The notes beneath the pieces are model-generated. The model was not told the origin of the DNA. It saw only the letters and a list, made by a program, of their open reading frames with translations, and did no database searches. This document shows, piece by piece, positions 2,537 to 33,100 of a stretch of DNA of 64,000 bases (position 1 is its first letter; every line of letters starts with the position of its first letter). The DNA is from Peptococcaceae bacterium (GTDB taxonomy: Bacteria > Bacillota > Dehalobacteriia > UBA4068 > JAAVYR01), in contig JAAVYR010000016.1 in NCBI GenBank assembly GCA_022791255.1, positions 1 through 64,000 on the forward strand, written 5' to 3'. The translations under genes were made by a program, and so were the position numbers.

Positions 2537-3820
2537 CTAAGGCAACATGGCACTATACACAGCACTGTAGTTAGAGTCTGCAGTTGTTGCAGAAAAAGCA
2601 ATCATTCTGCTATCCCCACCCCAAGAAACGCTAGTAACTTTGCCTTCAAATACCAACATGACAACTTCTTCTGTAGGATATACCACATACAGATTACCGT
2701 CTCTGTCAGTATAAATTGCCTTTGTACCATCAGGAGACCAGCTTAAGATATTCCCACCAGAAGCCTGATGCAATAATTTCGGTTCTGTATCCTGACTAGT
2801 TACCATCTTCCACAAGCCACCATCACGACTCATGCTATTGAGGAGCGTCATATCTCCCAAGGGAGAAATAGCTTCTGTATAGGCACTGTCAGTCAACCAT
2901 TCCGCCTTTGTTACAGTGTTTACGCTTTGGGCTGCGCCTAATTTTGCGCTATCATCTAAGAGGACCGGCTCATCTCCTGCCGATGGATTACTCTGCCATT
3001 TACTCGTCCCATAAGCGGAGCGAATGAAATATTCTACAGTATCACCATTTATTACGACCGGGTTGAGCACATCCCCGTCTTCGGAAGCAGCCAATAACAG
3101 CAAAGAATAGATACCGGATTTTTCCTTACCAGCAGCTACCTTCGGCAGCATTACTTCACCACTGCCGGAAACAGTCTGCTCCTTTATCGGTTCCGAATGA
3201 TTTGACGGAGAAGGCGGTTCGCTAACCCTGGGTCGTGAAGTTTCCACATTTTCTCCTGCAGGGATTACAGGGTCAGCAGGCTCTTTTGGGCTTACAGGGT
3301 CTGGGATATTTCCATTATTTTCCTCAGCAACAGGCTGTGAAATAACATCTGAGGAGGGTAATTTTTCTCCTCCCTGCGGCTGATAATTTGCCACAGACAG
3401 TCCATCCTGTGGAGAAGGAATAGTCCCAGGACCAGCTTGGTCCGGCAGCTGGCCTACGCCTACAGCAGCAACTAGAAAGGCTGCTGCAACTGCCGTGCCC
3501 CAACGAGCAAACCGCTTTCCATCTACATTCTTCTTCTTTAAAGGAACAACTGTTTGCCGTTTCGGTTGCGTAACTTTTTCTTCTTGGGTCTGCCAAGCAT
3601 CTTTTGGAAGGTTAGCCATCACACCAGCAGCAAACCCTTCAGGAGGAGCCGCCAGTGCCGCTTCTTCTCTCAGCAAACCATTGATAGTTTCTACTTCAGC
3701 AAGCAGCTTAGCACAACTTTCACATTGGTGGATATGGGCCAAAAGAATTTGGGCTTCTTCTTCAGCAAGAAGACCATCAGCATAGAGATAGATTTGTTCT
3801 TCCCATTTTACACAGGTCAA
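2537..3820 (-). CDS. Membrane anti-sigma factor with zinc-finger and propeller-like C-terminus
   Basis: The N-terminal 45 residues form a ZAS/zf-HC2 anti-sigma domain: Cys3 and the H29-x3-C33-x2-C36 motif bind zinc and should hold the neighbouring ECF sigma factor. A membrane segment lies near residues 105-125, so the rest is outside the cytoplasm. It begins with a Pro/Ser/Glu-rich linker. The last 80 residues contain TolB-like beta-propeller blades (WSPDGTKAIYTDRDGNLY), probably a sensing surface. The start is TTG: its bases overlap the sigma stop (TTGA), with GGAAAGGGGG upstream, so translation is coupled. The inducing signal is unknown. Confidence 0.85.
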   Translation of the reverse strand: MTCVKWEEQIYLYADGLLAEEEAQILLAHIHQCESCAKLLAEVETINGLLREEAALAAPPEGFAAGVMANLPKDAWQTQEEKVTQPKRQTVVPLKKKNVDGKRFARWGTAVAAAFLVAAVGVGQLPDQAGPGTIPSPQDGLSVANYQPQGGEKLPSSDVISQPVAEENNGNIPDPVSPKEPADPVIPAGENVETSRPRVSEPPSPSNHSEPIKEQTVSGSGEVMLPKVAAGKEKSGIYSLLLLAASEDGDVLNPVVINGDTVEYFIRSAYGTSKWQSNPSAGDEPVLLDDSAKLGAAQSVNTVTKAEWLTDSAYTEAISPLGDMTLLNSMSRDGGLWKMVTSQDTEPKLLHQASGGNILSWSPDGTKAIYTDRDGNLYVVYPTEEVVMLVFEGKVTSVSWGGDSRMIAFSATTADSNYSAVYSAMLP

Positions 3821-18137: not shown

Positions 18138-18301
18138 CGGATAGTGCACCATATTACGAAAGCATTACATACTACTACCGGATAGTGCTCCATTCTACAA
18201 AAGAACTACCTACTACTTCCGGATAGTGCTCCATTCTACAAAAGAACTACCTACTACTTCCGGATAGTGCCACATATTACGAAAGCATGACTTACTACTA
18301 C
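18138..18301. repeat. Four tandem 41-bp repeats
   Basis: Four contiguous 41-base units begin at 18138, 18179, 18220 and 18261, each opening CGGATAGTGC and ending CTACTACT[TA]C or TACTACTAC. Units 2 and 3 are identical; units 1 and 4 share the variant CATATTACGAAAGCAT centre. The unit resembles dispersed hairpin repeats at 19622-19680 and 63530-63600. It is noncoding and begins right after the metK stop. Confidence 0.9.
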
Positions 18302-18364: not shown

Positions 18365-18398
18365 TGTCATCCTGAGGAATGTAATGACGAAGGAACTT
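18365..18398. repeat. Dispersed TGTCATYCTGAG-family palindromic repeat
   Basis: TGTCATCCTGAGGAATGTAATGACGAAGGAAC-type element, quoted by its ends TGTCATCCTGAGG and GACGAAGGAACTT. The same family recurs at seven other places in this window, always between genes. Confidence 0.8.
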
Positions 18399-18399
18399 A

Positions 18400-18430
18400 A
18401 AAAGAGAACGGAAAAATCCGTTCTCTTTTC
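18400..18430. terminator. Terminator between metK and XRE gene
   Basis: AAAAGAGAACGGA pairs with TCCGTTCTCTTTT with a four-base loop. It is bidirectional and touches the stop codon of the minus-strand XRE gene. Confidence 0.8.
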
Positions 18431-18674
18431 ATTTTAAATCGTCCATAATCTCATTCTTAAGAATAGGAATATCAAAAAACTCTGATAAAGTCATATTAAA
18501 ATAACTTGCCACTTTGTATATGATAACAATATTCGGCTTCTTACTATTTCCATGTATAATATTATTAAGAGTAGACTGGGGAATATCAGCGTTTTTAGCT
18601 AACTTGTTTATAGTGATTTTCCTCTTTCTACAAAGTTCTACAATACGAATGCCAATCACTTCTTGCAAAGTCAT
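18429..18674 (-). CDS. XRE-family transcriptional regulator (module 1)
   Basis: This 81-residue protein is one helix-turn-helix domain: residues about 8-65 carry ITINKLAKNADIPQSTLNNI as the HTH core. Start ATG follows GGGAGGGG. It is divergent from a small Cys protein at 18818 and paralogous to the regulator at 19031 (shared RIVELCRKRxIT start and FMT-type end). A GGG-N4-CCC palindrome between the divergent genes is its likely operator. It probably represses its partner and perhaps itself. Confidence 0.88.
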   Translation of the reverse strand: MTLQEVIGIRIVELCRKRKITINKLAKNADIPQSTLNNIIHGNSKKPNIVIIYKVASYFNMTLSEFFDIPILKNEIMDDLK

Positions 18675-18746
18675 AGATATTCCCCTCCCTTCTCATATAC
18701 TTACTCAAAACATATCACGGATTTTAAAATAGTTACCTATCGTTGG

Positions 18747-18775
18747 TTGACTTTTTAATTATTTTTAATTAAAAT
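18747..18775 (+). promoter_or_regulatory. Promoter of small Cys protein, module 1
   Basis: TTGACT (18747-18752) and TAAAAT (18770-18775) are 17 bases apart. The palindromic operator at 18780 lies at the expected transcription start. Confidence 0.7.
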
Positions 18776-18779
18776 TATT

Positions 18780-18794
18780 ACGGGAATACCCTTA
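18780..18794. promoter_or_regulatory. Candidate operator ACGGG-N4-CCCTTA, module 1
   Basis: ACGGGAATACCCTTA contains the palindrome GGG-AATA-CCC. The same motif occurs twice in the matching intergenic region of module 2 (19331 and 19350). Confidence 0.55.
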
Positions 18795-18817
18795 ACTAAA
18801 GAAGGAGCGGCATAGCT

Positions 18818-18994
18818 TTGATAAACTGTTATCGAAAATTTTGTATTTACAGTCAAGATAATAAATGTCAAAAAGATATTATTTTAGTAGACCAAACAGG
18901 TGCTTGTGCTGATTTTATAGATATCCGCTCAGATAATCTTTTAATCATAAAAAATCGAGTGCGAAAAAAGTGGGCAAAAGAAGAAAAAAAGTAA
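18818..18994 (+). CDS. Small Cys-motif protein (module 1)
   Basis: A 58-residue protein starts at TTG 18818 after GAAGGAG; no ATG start is available. Its cysteines are C4-x4-C9-x7-C17-x12-C30, exactly the spacing of the 63-residue protein at 19395 (C7, C12, C20, C33), and both share CxY and IxL-x4-GxC around them, so they are paralogs. The C-terminus is basic and helical. A zinc-binding mini-protein is likely. No family is recognised. Being divergent to an XRE gene suggests a two-gene module. Confidence 0.7.
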   Translation: MINCYRKFCIYSQDNKCQKDIILVDQTGACADFIDIRSDNLLIIKNRVRKKWAKEEKK

Positions 18995-19022
18995 CAGAGC
19001 TTATCGTATACTCTGTTACTTT
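18991..19022. terminator. Terminator between modules 1 and 2
   Basis: GTAACAGAG (18991-18999) pairs with CTCTGTTAC (19011-19019). It overlaps the stop codon of the small Cys gene and precedes the end of the next, opposite XRE gene. Confidence 0.7.
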
Positions 19023-19030
19023 ATCTCATT

Positions 19031-19291
19031 TTATTCATCTTCATTTTTCTCATCTTCTTCAAATTCGCCCTCATTCATTTCAGGAAAATCTAAAAATTGA
19101 GATACCGTCATACAAAAACCACGAGCAATTTTATTTACCGTCCGAAATTCCGGACTTCCAATCCTTAAAGTCATAATATCACTAATTGTTCCTTGAGGTA
19201 CACCTGACATTTTTGCAAGAGCATTTGGAGTAATATTTCTTTTTCGACACAATTCAGCAATTCGCATTTTCAAAACTTCACAATAGGTCAT
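19031..19291 (-). CDS. XRE-family transcriptional regulator (module 2)
   Basis: This 86-residue single-domain HTH protein starts after AAAGGAG. The HTH core is ITPNALAKMSGVPQGTISDI (about 20-39), followed by the usual helix pair and an acidic tail rich in Glu/Asp. It is paralogous to the regulator at 18429 and likewise divergent to a small Cys protein (19395). Two GGG-N4-CCC-type sites lie between it and its partner. Confidence 0.88.
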   Translation of the reverse strand: MTYCEVLKMRIAELCRKRNITPNALAKMSGVPQGTISDIMTLRIGSPEFRTVNKIARGFCMTVSQFLDFPEMNEGEFEEDEKNEDE

Positions 19292-19330
19292 GAAACATTG
19301 CTCCTTTCTCCAGCTTTTCTATATCATACA

Positions 19331-19364
19331 ACGGAATACCCCTAATCTTACGGGTAAACCCTTA
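19331..19364. promoter_or_regulatory. Two candidate operators, module 2
   Basis: ACGGAATACCCCTA (19331-19344) and ACGGGTAAACCCTTA (19350-19364) are one helical turn or two apart in the divergent promoter region. They match the single site of module 1. Confidence 0.55.
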
Positions 19365-19394
19365 ATATGAAAAATTTTTAAAAGGAGATATTTT

Positions 19395-19586
19395 ATGCGC
19401 AAAATAATTACTTGTAACAATGAAATGTGTCTTTATGAAGAAGACGGCACCTGCACCCAAAAGGAAATTACCTTGGACCACCGTGGCCGTTGTCGACAAT
19501 GCATGAATATTATTTTAGAACCCGAACTAATTAAGGAGAAAAAACAAAAGTTCTGGGAAATGGTATCAAGAGACGACGAGGAATAG
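19395..19586 (+). CDS. Small Cys-motif protein (module 2)
   Basis: This 63-residue protein starts 8 bases after AAGGAG. Cysteines C7-x4-C12-x7-C20-x12-C33-x2-C36 match the spacing of the paralog at 18818, with an extra CxxC at the end. Conserved non-Cys features are LYE/IYS after the second Cys and ITLDHRGRC. The tail is charged and helical. It is probably a small zinc-binding or redox protein controlled by the divergent XRE regulator; its function is unknown. Confidence 0.8.
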   Translation: MRKIITCNNEMCLYEEDGTCTQKEITLDHRGRCRQCMNIILEPELIKEKKQKFWEMVSRDDEE

Positions 19587-19590
19587 TTTT

Positions 19591-19680
19591 AAGATCCTTC
19601 GCTTTGCTCAGGATGACAAATAATGCCACGCGCTACAAAAGACTACAAACTACTTCCGACAGTTACTTTTACCTAGTGAG
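19591..19680. repeat. Compound dispersed repeat (AGATCCTTCG unit plus CTACTTCC unit)
   Basis: AGATCCTTCGCTTTGCTCAGG-type element (19591-19619; ends AAGATCCTTCG and GGATGACAA) is joined to ATGCCACGCGCTACAAAAG and ACTACTTCCGACAGTTAC. The same two-part composite recurs at 63495-63600. Confidence 0.75.
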
Positions 19681-19705: not shown

Positions 19706-19888
19706 TTATTTTACGAGATGAAGTTTGGTCCGTTTCTTGTCGATAACCCGCTCGTTTTGCTCCCGGTAGACATCAGTGATAAGGCCGGCATAGGTTAGGT
19801 CCTTGCCGCAATAAGGGCAATACCAGATACCCCTGTCATGGGCAGAATAAGACACCTGGTTGCAGTTTTCACAGCGTTTATAAGACAT
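19706..19888 (-). CDS. Small zinc-ribbon protein
   Basis: The start chosen (ATG 19888) follows AAAAGGGGG at 9 bases and gives 60 residues. Two CxxC pairs, CENC near the N-terminus and CPYC after WY, form a rubredoxin-like zinc ribbon of about 20 residues (YKRCENCNQVSY, IWYCPYCGKDL). The rest is a charged helix. Such stand-alone ribbons are often nucleic-acid or protein adaptors. No partner is visible. Confidence 0.75.
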   Translation of the reverse strand: MSYKRCENCNQVSYSAHDRGIWYCPYCGKDLTYAGLITDVYREQNERVIDKKRTKLHLVK

Positions 19889-20024
19889 AATAAAGAGCCC
19901 CCTTTTCCGCAAAGTATCTCCTATCTTCTACTTTTAGTTTACTCTTTGCAGATGGAAAAGATTGCCGCTTCTTGTCTCGCCCACCAGGAAATATTCCCCA
20001 ATACTTCTCCTTTATTCCCTTTTT

Positions 20025-20215
20025 CCTGCATAAAAAAACTCACTACCTCTTACGCAAAAATAATCGCATAGGAAGTAGTATCATCCGCCACTTTTCACAT
20101 AAAAAAACTTCCTACCTCTCACACAATGTCAGAAGCAGGAAAAATATCTCTACTCCCTGCATAAAAAAACTCACTACCTCTTACGCAAAAATAATTGCAT
20201 AGGAAGTAGTGAGTT
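20025..20215. repeat. Two direct copies of a CTCACTACCTC hairpin repeat; second copy a terminator
   Basis: A near-identical sequence of about 54 bases occurs at 20025-20079 and 20156-20210, beginning CCTGCATAAAAAAACTCACT and ending GCATAGGAAGTAGT. A related, diverged copy lies between them (about 20098-20140). In the second copy AACTCACTAC pairs with GTAGTGAGTT; read leftward it is followed by seven T, so it can terminate the SH3 gene ending at 20242. Confidence 0.8.
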
Positions 20216-26868: not shown

Positions 26869-28188
26869 TTATTTATTGATATACTTGCAGAAACGGCTAA
26901 TCATAGCAGCAGCTTCTCCACGAGTAGTTTTCCCGCTAGGACTAAAGGTAGTATCCGTAGTACCACCAATAAGACCTGTATTGACTGCAGCCATAGCACC
27001 ATCTTTTGCCCAGGTAGCAATAGATTTTGCATCTGCAAATTTATTCAGTTTGGTCATATCATTGCCGCCAGCAGATACCCCGGCTTTGTCCATTGCCCGT
27101 AAGAACATGACAGCCATTTCTTGTCTGGTGATAGGGTCTTCTGGCGCAAAAGAAGTATCACTCTTCCCAGAGACTACCCCATGATAAGCAGCAGTCAGCG
27201 CTGGTTTATAATAATCTTTTGCCGTAGATAAATCTTTAAATTTTCCGGCAAGGCTGGTGTTTTCTTCTAAGCCAAGGGCATTTACCAGATACACTGCAAA
27301 TTCAGCCCGGGTGATGTTTCTCTTTGGATAGAAGTTAATATTTTTATCATTGATAACCCCGATGGATTGTAAATAAAGAATATCATCCTTTGCCCAGTGG
27401 TTTGTAATATCACTAAATGCCCCTTGAGAAACAGCATTATTATTCTGAGTGTTGCTGCTGGTAGCAGCATGGTCTTTAGAGCCAACTAAGCAATATACCC
27501 CAGCTTTACTAATATTTGCGGTAACCATTTTCTTGGTGGTATCAACACTACCGCCAACTAAGCTCCACACATAGGTAGTTACATGATTAGCAGTATCCAA
27601 ATCAAAATAATACATTCTTAATTTATCAGCAGGCACACCGCCAGTAGGTACTTCCCAATTGGTGCCCCATTCATAGTAATCATTTACTTTGATGCTGCCA
27701 CCAAAATCTTTCACATCTGCAACATGTCTGCCACCAGCACGAAGTTCTGCTTTCAATGTAAACGTGGAGGCAGGTTCCCGGTACATCCCTTTGGTATTAT
27801 AGGTACCATCAGAGAAATATTTACCAGACTTATCCATATCTTTTACCACAAAGGTAATATCCATTTCTAAAGGTTCTGCACCGCTTTCCCGGCTTTTCCA
27901 TTCAGAAGTGTTTTTAATGGCATTGGGGTCAATGGTCACATCGATAAATTTCATATCGATAAAAAGCTGCTTTTTATTTTCAATCATATATTTGACAGCA
28001 TCTTGTTCCAGTTTGATATCTTTGGTTTTCGGTGTGCCGGTTAATTTTAATTTCACTAAATCACCGGATACATTGTTTTTGGCCATTTCCCTGTCGATTG
28101 TAATGCTATCAGTAGTTGCAGCAAAGCTAACAGCAGACAAGGAAAATACAGTAAAACAAATAAGAAGTAATGCGACAAGTTTTTTCAT
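26869..28188 (-). CDS. SLH-domain surface protein
   Basis: From ATG 28188 the protein has 439 residues, after AAAGGGTG; a GTG three codons earlier lacks better support. A signal peptide ends near VSFAAT. Residues about 30-245 are a beta-rich domain I do not recognise. Three C-terminal SLH repeats (about 255-435) show the FSDITNHWAKDDI, FKDLSTAKDYYKPAL and FADAKSIATWAKDGA starts and TRAE/TRQE/TRGE ends. SLH domains anchor proteins to peptidoglycan-linked polymer. csaB is nearby, consistent with a pyruvylated ligand. Confidence 0.9.
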   Translation of the reverse strand: MKKLVALLLICFTVFSLSAVSFAATTDSITIDREMAKNNVSGDLVKLKLTGTPKTKDIKLEQDAVKYMIENKKQLFIDMKFIDVTIDPNAIKNTSEWKSRESGAEPLEMDITFVVKDMDKSGKYFSDGTYNTKGMYREPASTFTLKAELRAGGRHVADVKDFGGSIKVNDYYEWGTNWEVPTGGVPADKLRMYYFDLDTANHVTTYVWSLVGGSVDTTKKMVTANISKAGVYCLVGSKDHAATSSNTQNNNAVSQGAFSDITNHWAKDDILYLQSIGVINDKNINFYPKRNITRAEFAVYLVNALGLEENTSLAGKFKDLSTAKDYYKPALTAAYHGVVSGKSDTSFAPEDPITRQEMAVMFLRAMDKAGVSAGGNDMTKLNKFADAKSIATWAKDGAMAAVNTGLIGGTTDTTFSPSGKTTRGEAAAMISRFCKYINK

Positions 28189-28244
28189 TTTTAGCACCCT
28201 TTCCCTTTTTCTATCACAGAATAAGACATCTTGTAGCTAATCAG

Positions 28245-29048: not shown

Positions 29049-30173
29049 TTACATGCCTCCAGAATAAACACCATAAGTAAATTTTGCATTGGCTAAGTTG
29101 TTATTGTAGATAGCGTCTAACCAGCCCAGCTCTGCTTGACGCAGGCTAGCTTCTGCATTTTGTACATCATAGGTAGTAGCCATGCCCATATCATATTGGA
29201 GCAAAGTCAGCCGATAGCTTTCCTTGGCCAGCTCCAAGGATTTATTCAAGCCTTCCATATTGCCGGCAGTGGTCGCTAGGTTGTTATAAGCGTTGCGCAC
29301 ATTTTTCTCTAAGGTTTTTTTCGCTTCATCATACTGGATGACATTGCTCTTATGGGTCGCTTCATCCTTCATATAGTTATAGGATTTACTAGCATAGGTA
29401 TAACCCGTATGCTGCAAGTCTAACTCACTGTTGGTCATGTTTAGTTTCGCAGTGGCCACGCTGACATCTGTTTCCAATCCTTTTTCGATGGCAGCACCTA
29501 AATCAATATTTCCAGCTGTCCGTGGCGTAAGGCCAGTGGTTAAGGTCAACTCTGTCGTTAATGGTACACCCATCAACTGCGCTAATTCCATCTTGGCAGA
29601 AGTCACGCCATTTTCTGCTTGCTTTACGGTTACCTCAGCAGTTTTTACATTAGCTTCTGCACTAAGTACATCCAACTTTGCCACAGAACCTTTCTTAAAG
29701 CTTGCTTGCGCGTTCTTATATTGGGTGTTGGTCCGTTCTAAAGAAGCTTTGGCAAACTCCAAGTTTTTCTCAGCTTTTAAGACCCCATAATAAGCAGACT
29801 CTACGCCAAAAGCAATACTGTTTTTCGTATAATCCAAGGCTTTTACCGCCATTTCTCGAGAAGCTTTTGCCTTTGCCGGGGCGATTTCTGTGGCCATATA
29901 ATAATCCTGGTTTTGATAGGCAAAATCTACTCTGCCTAAACTTCTGATTTTACTTTCGATTTCTTCGATAGAAACATCCAGCGCCTCAACTTGCAATTGT
30001 TGCACACCGATTTGCGCATTATTTTTCATTGCGGTATCAATTGCATCCTGCAAGGAAAGCTTCATTGGCTGTCCGGCAGCATTGACTGGTTCATCTGCAA
30101 ATGCCATACCAGAACAAGCAAACACAAGCGCAGTTGTAAGCACTGCTAACCATTTGCATGTTTTTTGCTTCAT
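29049..30173 (-). CDS. tolC: TolC-family outer membrane efflux protein
   Basis: The protein has 374 residues from ATG 30173, which lies one base after the RND pump stop and uses AGGAAGG as its ribosome-binding site. A signal peptide ends near MAFADEP. Two related long helical halves with OEP repeats follow (LSLQDAIDTAMKNNAQIGVQ; YNQ-like periodic helices such as TYDVQNAEASLRQAELGWLD), typical of the trimeric outer-membrane exit duct. It is shorter than E. coli TolC but within the wider family. Its presence is direct evidence for an outer membrane. Confidence 0.92.
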   Translation of the reverse strand: MKQKTCKWLAVLTTALVFACSGMAFADEPVNAAGQPMKLSLQDAIDTAMKNNAQIGVQQLQVEALDVSIEEIESKIRSLGRVDFAYQNQDYYMATEIAPAKAKASREMAVKALDYTKNSIAFGVESAYYGVLKAEKNLEFAKASLERTNTQYKNAQASFKKGSVAKLDVLSAEANVKTAEVTVKQAENGVTSAKMELAQLMGVPLTTELTLTTGLTPRTAGNIDLGAAIEKGLETDVSVATAKLNMTNSELDLQHTGYTYASKSYNYMKDEATHKSNVIQYDEAKKTLEKNVRNAYNNLATTAGNMEGLNKSLELAKESYRLTLLQYDMGMATTYDVQNAEASLRQAELGWLDAIYNNNLANAKFTYGVYSGGM

Positions 30174-30174
30174 C

Positions 30175-33100
30175 TTACACACCTTCCTGCTGCATTTTTT
30201 TATTTTTTCTAGCTAGTTTCCGTGCTAAGCGTTTTGCTTTGCGTTTTTCTTCTTTATCAACGGTAATGCTGTAAACAACCGGTACAAAGACCATGGTAAA
30301 GATGGTAGAGATGGTTAACCCCCCAGCAACGACTGTTCCCAGAGGCGCAGTCATAGAACCACCATCCCCAGCACCGATAGCCATTGGCAACATACCAAGT
30401 ACAGTGGTCAAAGTGGACATGAGTACCGGACGAAGACGAGTTGGACTGCCCGTAACAATAGCCTCATCCTTATTCATCCCCTGAGCACGGAGCTGGTTAA
30501 TATAGTCTACCAATACAATCCCATTGTTTACAACGATACCGGCCAGCATAATACAACCCATTAAAGCAGGCATACTAAGTGCCCGACCAGTAAGGGCTAA
30601 GGAGAAAATAACCCCAATTAACGCTGTTGGTAAAGAGAAGAGAATAACAAAAGGATAGATAAAAGACTCATAAAGAGCCGCCATAATCATGTATACCAAA
30701 ACAATGGCAAGGATTAACGCTAACCCTAAACTACCAAAGGACTCCATCATGGTTTCATAGGAACCGCCTTGGACCACACTATAACCTTCTGGCATTGGAT
30801 ACTGGGCGATTTTTTTATTAATATCAGAGATAACGCTGTTTAAGTCTCTGTCATAAATAGAAGCAGATACCGTTACTTGACGGATTTGGTTTTCACGGCT
30901 AATGCTGTCAGGACCAGCTTCTAAAGAAAACTCTGCAATATCGCCTAACGGCACTTGGCTGCCACTGGCAGTAGATACCATGATGTTTTCCATATCAGTT
31001 ACACTCTGACGGTATTCTTCCGGTAAGATGACCCGAATATCATATTCATTACCATCTACCCGGTATACAGAGGCCACATTGCCGCTAAAGCCACTTCTAG
31101 CAGCCGTTGCGATTTGAGCTAAGTTCAAACCGTATTGACTAGCTTTCAGGCGATTGACACGGATAACATATTCCGGTTGAGCGTCTGCCAAGCTGCTATC
31201 GGCTTCTCGGACGCCTTCTACCCCTTCGATAAGACCGACGATATCATTTGCTACGTTCTGCAGTGTTTCCAGGTCATCCCCTTGAAGCTGGATGGAAACA
31301 CCGCCGCCGCCCATGCCTCCCATACCGGAAGAGCTGGCACCAGATACGGAAATATCAGCACCAGGCACCATAGCCAGCCGTTTCCGCAAGTCTTCTGCTA
31401 CATCATCGCTGCTGACCTTTCTATCTTCCAAAGGTACTAACATCACTGTGATGCTGCCGCTAGAGCCGCTGACATTGGTGAAGACAATATCAATCACATC
31501 TCCATAAGCTAAAATGATTTCTTCTGCTTGTTTAACTACTTCATTGGTGGTTTCCAGTGTGGTCCCATCCTCTAAAGATATATTGATAGAGATTTGGCCT
31601 TCATCCGACGCCGGCATTAATTCCATACCGATAACCGGAATGAGGAAGAAACTTACCACAAAGGCAAGGACAACACCGAGCACTACCTTTTTGCGGTGGT
31701 GCAATGCCCAATTTAACAACTGCTTGTATTTCTCTTCAAACTTCATAAACCAGTTGTTAAATTTTTCGCCCATACGGACAAAGAAATTTTGCTTTTCTCC
31801 AGAGGAGCGTCTCGCTTCGATTTCGTCCAGTTCTTCTTTACTGATAAGCTTAGAGCAGAGCATTGGCACCAAAGTCAATGCCACCACTAAGGACATCAAA
31901 AGGGAGAAGCTTACAGTCAGGGACATATCCCGCATCATCATAGAGGCAATACCTTCGGTAAATACCATCGGCAGGAATACAGCCACCGTCGTTAAGGTAG
32001 AAGCGATTACCGCCAACCCCATTTCCGAGGCACCTTTAATAGCCGCCGTTTCCCTGTCTTCGCCTAATTCATTATGACGATACACATTTTCAAGGACTAC
32101 GATAGAGGAGTCTACCATCATCCCCAGGCCTAGCGATAAGCCCCCTAAGGACATAATGTTTAAGGTTACATCGTTAAAGAACATCAAAACAAATGTCCCA
32201 ATCAAGGAAATCGGAATAGACAATGCAATAACGATGGTACTCTTAATGCTTCTCAAGAACAACAGCAATACTAAGATAGAGAGAATAGACCCGGTAATCA
32301 ATGTCTGTACCAAGTTATCAATGGTACCATTAATGTAATCTGCACTGTCCATAATCACATTCAGCGAAACATTTTCCGGTAATTCTCGTTCCAGTTGGGC
32401 AACAGCCCGTTTTACATTGTTAGACACTTCTACCGTATTCGCATCACTTTGCTTGCTGATAGAAATGGCTAGGCCGTCTTCCCCGTTAATTCTGCCATAG
32501 CCAGTGACTTCCGCATTGGTTTCTACGATTTGGGCAATTTCAGATAAATTTACAGTGCCACTGCCCGTCGGGATTTGTACCATGCCCAAGTCTTCCAGAG
32601 AGGCGAAGCGACCTACCGCCCGGACGATAATGTCTTTCCCAGCTGTTTCTACCGTACCGGTAGAGAAGTTGCTGTTGTCAGACTGTATCATCTGAGAAAT
32701 AGAAGCAATGGTTAAGTTGTACGCCCGCATTTTTACCGGGTCTGGAATAACCTGGATTTCCTTGCTATAACCACCCTGGATTTCTACAGAAGCCACTCCG
32801 TTTTGCCGTTCTAATCTCGGCTGGATGGTGTCCTCTGCTAAAGTTTTTAAGTAAGATAAATCCTTCCCGCCAGAAAGACTCATATAGATAACCGGCATCA
32901 TAGAGGGGTCCGCCTGGATAATCATAGGGTTATCTGCGTCATCTGGCAGCATCCCTTTTACCAAATCTACCTTTTCCCGCATTCTGAGGGTGGCAAAGTT
33001 CATATCCGTTCCCCAGTTAAAGGTAGCCATTACCATAGAAGAGCCGCGAGAAGACTGAGAAGAAATGGTATCAATGCCGCTTACCGCACCCAAAGCATTT

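Follow-up and report, generated by a model that had tools for sequence, protein, structure and literature searches.

The window analyzed here is a 64,000-nucleotide stretch of DNA from a Peptococcaceae bacterium. It carries two adjoining two-gene units, and in both of them a gene for a small XRE regulator (- strand) lies divergent to a gene for a mini-protein with four cysteines, or mini (+ strand). The genes and the putative control sites are listed by window position.

18429-18674 (-): XRE-A, 81 aa, small Cro/C1-type HTH regulator; Pfam HTH_26 at 41.3 bits (cut-off 22)
18747-18775 (+): predicted sigma70-type promoter of mini-A, TTGACT - 17 nt - TAAAAT; 10/12 consensus matches
18778-18795 (+): putative operator A, TTACGGGAATACCCTTAA, immediately 3' of the -10 hexamer; genome-restricted 18-mer
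18818-18994 (+): mini-A, 58-aa four-Cys protein with TTG start and GGAG ribosome-binding site at 18804-18807; family profile match
19031-19291 (-): XRE-B, 86 aa, small Cro/C1-type HTH regulator; Pfam HTH_26 at 32.2 bits (cut-off 22)
19328-19345 (+): putative, imperfect operator B1, ACAACGGAATACCCCTAA, read from the sequence
19348-19365 (+): putative operator B2, TTACGGGTAAACCCTTAA; exact 18-mer match
19395-19586 (+): mini-B, 63-aa four-Cys protein, GGAG at 19384-19387; family profile match

The initial annotation described two adjacent pairs of the same layout, and all four reading frames are indeed open as given. Both regulators exceed the Pfam cut-offs for HTH_26/HTH_3 and, as had been proposed, are paralogs (43% identity, BLASTP E 1e-21). 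The minis are homologous to one another (31% identity, E 6e-8), and the C-x4-C-x7-C-x12-C spacing claimed for them is exact in both. The description of the locus as duplicated holds for the layout and the regulators; the two minis are not nearest neighbors in the mini tree, although this tree is poorly resolved. The TTG start of mini-A, flagged as easily missed, is supported by a congeneric homolog with TTG at the equivalent position and by the start position in the family, where the first cysteine follows one to two residues after the start in most members. We take all four genes to be real.

Several other features surround the block. Degenerate 41-nt tandem repeats (18138-18301, three to four units, CGGATAGTGC...) lie directly 3' of metK and 5' of both units. 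A dispersed repeat (TGTCATCCTGAG...CGAAGGATCTTAAAA) flanks the two units in inverted orientation at 18365-18402 and 19588-19618. Insertion of the block by a mobile element was considered on this basis and not adopted, because this repeat recurs commonly across the window, with further copies at, for example, 50144, 62977, 63528 and 63627; it is also common beside the other minis of this genome. A small zinc-ribbon protein (19706-19888, -), weakly similar to ribosomal L37ae-type ribbons, adjoins mini-B, and such a protein also adjoins XRE-B in the congener G002 (L003:2102-2293). Intergenic repeats of 64 and 29 nt (CATAAAAAAACTCACTACCTCTTACGCAA) occupy 20016-20210. Inspection of translations further pointed to a protein with S-layer homology and a TolC-like efflux protein of the outer membrane (26869-28197 and 29049-30182), hinting at a two-membrane Bacillota host.

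Putative operator sites in the divergent gaps

GGG-N4-CCC palindromes had been noted in both divergent gaps. Exact copies occur at 18782-18791 and 19352-19361, whereas the third site, annotated at 19331, lies at about 19332-19341 and is imperfect (CGG-AATA-CCC). The short motif alone was not enriched in the window (5 found vs 11 expected by chance). With up to two mismatches allowed, the 18-bp near-palindrome TTAMGGGWAWNCCCTTAA matches in just two places across the 1.56-Mb genome, and these are the two mini promoters. This pattern was derived from the window sites and those of the congener, so that the informative result is the absence of further sites: no operator was found at additional target genes in the 1.56-Mb genome at this threshold. 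In a shuffle test the gap palindromes of both window units were weak, and across the family the best palindrome reached P 0.05 against shuffles in just 21 of 59 gaps. The match to the mini-A promoter is the best of its region, where the number of such sites about equals that in shuffled sequence, and it is hence given as a prediction only.

Parts of this arrangement are conserved in G002. The counterpart of operator A is a perfect inverted repeat (17-bp arm) with the same core, located at a mini-A homolog that is 41% identical (pN/pS 0.36/0.68). The XRE-B ortholog is 79-80% identical, with a dN/dS of about 0.09, and the counterpart of operator B1 fits the 18-mer at two mismatches. G002 lacks the mini-B gene, yet XRE-B and its two sites are retained; DNA similarity ends five bases before the mini-B ATG and resumes past the gene. 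Also missing at the corresponding place is the rnhA-lepB-metK-XRE-A stretch, which in the window lies between a permease and mini-A.

The restriction of the operator bears on one function suggested in the initial annotation, a metal- or redox-sensing unit. In such a unit the cysteines would detect zinc or thiol stress and control a response jointly with the XRE protein. Four conserved cysteines in both minis, and a fifth three residues beyond the fourth in 60 of 84 family members, count in favor of this reading. A sensing regulon is disfavored because further strong operator sites are absent from the genome, and one mini family occurs with regulators of unrelated folds, which speaks against a specific interface between sensor and regulator; we consider this reading quite improbable. 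As judged from the sequence, the window operators look like a local circuit and not a regulon.

A recurring mini-protein family and its regulators

The initial annotation proposed searching for the pair in other genomes, and it was found in dozens. Profile searches identified four minis in all in the window's own genome and relatives in two congeners. In the small class to which the window belongs, 11 of 43 genomes were carriers; two large gut-clostridial orders also contained them, at 20/345 in one (18/245 in an overlapping sample of that order) and 20/295 in the other. The carrier share is thus about 7% of sampled genomes in these two orders (18/245, 20/295). Named cultured carriers are Clostridium methylpentosum DSM 5476 and Butyricicoccus faecihominis DFI.6.109. 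Neither tblastn (two minis each) nor two viral-contig scans detected phage or plasmid relatives of the minis, with sensitivity limited by the short queries, and a phage or plasmid origin was rejected on these results. No known RNA elements were found near the modules.

The cysteine pattern is exact in 74 of 84 family members, a count that excludes members without the pattern; starts were chosen by this pattern, so the invariance of the cysteines is partly by construction. Purifying selection acts on the minis (dN/dS mostly 0.1-0.4). An AlphaFold2 model of mini-B (mean pLDDT 90, pTM 0.57) predicts a Cys-rich knuckle followed by a C-terminal helix (43-62). There was no match to the mini in the PDB, either by sequence or by fold. 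Foldseek matched it to viral DUF1540 proteins with a probability of 0.80-0.96 but E values of 0.1-0.2, and weak Pfam matches to DUF1540 were obtained for 21 of 68 family members (best E 1.2e-5). The four conserved cysteines of the minis are a DUF1540 trait. No Pfam or NCBIfam model scored above its cut-off for the window minis; for DUF1540 (PF07561) mini-A reached 12.8 bits vs 22.1, and mini-B had no match. Among the same 68 members, 12 weakly matched phrog_4279 and none matched DUF397 (Pfam). On these weak Pfam and fold matches the mini is DUF1540-like, and from its four cysteines and presumed cytoplasmic location we infer that it probably binds one zinc ion through them.

The likeness to DUF1540 also suggests a role in structure or development, such as at the spore surface, for a protein that is only incidentally under local repressors: CdeA of Clostridioides difficile, which has a DUF1540 domain, four conserved cysteines and no assigned function, is an exosporium protein (PMC7677010). 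Against this, the window minis score under the DUF1540 cut-off, and there were no matches to the minis in 227 genomes of the order containing Clostridium sardiniense. Control by exchangeable local repressors is moreover unlike control by sporulation sigma factors, and we regard a structural role as very improbable.

Pairing was counted for the 83 distinct minis with sufficient upstream sequence, using a distance limit of 260 nt. A divergent gene for a small DNA-binding protein was present within this limit for 61 of them, comprising 42 XRE and 19 ribbon-helix-helix (RHH) genes; two minis had a co-directional RHH gene upstream, and up to 20 had no regulator within 260 nt. None of 941 genes from metK neighborhoods had such a partner at the same HMM cut-off, although this control is convenient rather than ideal because mini neighbors served as seeds for the HTH and RHH profiles and the controls are metK loci. 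Independent confirmation came from Pfam HTH_3, which matches 27 of 30 XRE partners. The RHH partner profile matches the structures of Arc (pArc E 3e-8), CopG and Mnt.

The regulator-mini pair therefore recurs across genomes, and the two-gene module is apparently undescribed and widespread in gut Clostridia. Of the initial proposal of an undescribed module, the divergent pair, the common operator and the TTG start are supported, whereas a sensing regulon and a toxin-antitoxin pair in protein contact are not.

Exchange of regulators and of their gap DNA

The clearest case of regulator exchange is found in genome G725, in which three tandem units encode minis that are 90-95% identical, each next to a different, unrelated XRE regulator.

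L192:1589-1762, 2375-2548 and 3171-3344 (-): the three tandem units of G725

Minis that are 75% identical in G388, and 77-81% identical in G373, are paired with either RHH or XRE proteins. Three closely related unit pairs between genomes have regulators that are 93-98% identical. The mini tree, built from 63 columns and 81 rows, implies 17 changes between XRE and RHH, a number that is only indicative since the tree is poorly resolved; a minimum of three to four is forced by well-supported branches.

We compared the gap DNA of units with similar regulators and dissimilar minis (55 pairs; median gap score 22) with that of units with dissimilar regulators (median 16). The resulting P of 2e-8 is too certain because the pairs are non-independent, although the direction is clear. 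Gaps with similar regulators contain recurring, subfamily-specific palindromes such as TGACATNTNGTAAATGTCA, and near-identical minis with unrelated regulators have gap scores that are mostly background. The gap DNA thus tracks the regulator, and these comparisons indicate that regulator and promoter/operator DNA are exchanged together, behaving as a single cassette.

These exchanges also bear on a toxin-antitoxin reading, in which the mini would act as toxin and the small DNA-binding protein as antitoxin. The genes are small, their spread is patchy and multi-copy with tandem copies, and the regulators are related to antitoxin folds. Toxin families are known to mix and match with antitoxins of differing folds (PMC6929052), and G002 retains XRE-B after losing mini-B. 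A classical type II system, in which the two proteins would be in contact, is nonetheless disfavored: 61 of the 63 regulator-linked pairs are divergent and not co-transcribed in one operon, and the regulators are minimal, their domain matches being followed by a median of 6 residues in RHH and 9 in XRE proteins, which may leave little space for a toxin-binding tail. Three unrelated XREs serve the nearly identical minis of G725, unrelated XRE and RHH proteins serve similar minis elsewhere, and up to 20 of the 83 minis have no adjoining regulator. PADLOC profiles gave zero matches among 68 minis. We consider it unlikely that the unit is a toxin-antitoxin pair.

Six regulator-less minis in three genomes are instead preceded by a leader RNA of ~170 nt. 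Its outer stem spans 15 bp and covaries; a conserved motif, GGTAAAAATGCA, has a potential pairing partner downstream, ATGCATTTTT, and the terminator ends ~20 nt before the start codon. In one clostridial order, 84 of 245 genomes scored for the leader, with up to 11 copies each; no copy was detected in the window. Thirty-six copies were aligned, among them:

L216:1501-1671, L217:1501-1670 and L188:1699-1871 (-): leader RNA copies
L189:1698-1870, L190:1695-1874 and L221:1501-1667 (-): leader RNA copies of the same 36-copy alignment, which holds 30 more

In this alignment, which was fitted to the model and is to that extent biased in favor of pairing, 97% of cells form pairs, and 19 of the 29 pairs carry compensatory changes. 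Even so, both figures greatly exceed those of shuffled controls and, likewise by a wide margin, those of slid ones. In 31 of 36 copies the terminator runs into a ribosome-binding site and then a start codon, and the downstream genes are varied (minis, zinc-ribbon proteins, lipoproteins). No Rfam 15 family reached its gathering score for the leader at the loci tested. On the evidence of covariation, the leader is a candidate new structured RNA and a possible riboswitch or attenuator.

A proposed local switch compared with known systems

We favor a model in which each unit is a local, self-contained and autoregulated switch, and think it fairly probable that the XRE protein represses both its own gene and that of the DUF1540-like mini. 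A small XRE repressor, probably dimeric, would bind the near-palindrome in the divergent gap: in unit A at the predicted mini transcription start, and in unit B at two operators between the genes, inside the region obliged to hold the XRE-B promoter. Since one operator is common to both units and the regulators are paralogs, units A and B probably cross-regulate. Once repression lifts, the mini would be made as a cytoplasmic, probably zinc-holding knuckle whose charged helix may touch a partner. Across the wider family the payload would remain constant while XRE and RHH cassettes, each a regulator with its promoter/operator, replace one another upstream of it; a few genomes have the structured RNA leader before the mini in place of a cassette. 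Homology, pairing, the restriction of the operator and the joint inheritance of regulator and gap are evident from the sequences, whereas repression, zinc binding and cross-regulation are proposed. More tentatively, and with less confidence than in the switch itself, we suggest that these loci might form a new class of small module, with a constant Cys-knuckle payload and repeated swaps of regulator-plus-operator cassettes of unrelated folds (XRE, RHH), perhaps so that paralogous copies evade cross-repression, and with the RNA leader instead in some genomes.

The mini family appears to be unannotated although it occurs in ~7% of the sampled genomes of two gut-clostridial orders. The module is a compact natural experiment in regulator replacement, with one payload under unrelated repressors within a single genome. 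Our searches found no paper on function, assigned function or solved structure for DUF1540, and the function of the mini, once found, would also inform on that family.

Divergent Cro/C1-type phage repressor regions have a small HTH repressor, divergent promoters and paired operators in the gap. The units described here share these traits, but their divergent product is a Cys knuckle and not an HTH protein. DUF1540 is likewise a small Cys-rich knuckle and its N-terminal C-x4-C-x7-C part aligns with the minis, which differ in the fixed x12 spacing to the fourth cysteine and in the C-terminal helix. Mix-and-match type II toxin-antitoxin systems (PMC6929052) similarly combine a constant small family with DNA-binding partners of several folds, whereas in the mini modules the genes are divergent, few partner residues lie outside the DNA-binding domain, and the regulator is accompanied by its gap DNA. 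The closest published analogue, in spirit, is the XRE-DUF397 (WhiJ/BldB) system of Streptomyces, once proposed to be a toxin-antitoxin system, in which WhiJ9 binds repeats within an intergenic region (PMC6262351, PMC10294661). In both cases an XRE regulator is paired with a small protein of unknown function, in many paralogous pairs. DUF397 lies downstream of its XRE gene, whereas the genes of the window module are divergent; the minis do not match DUF397, and in their family RHH can substitute for XRE.
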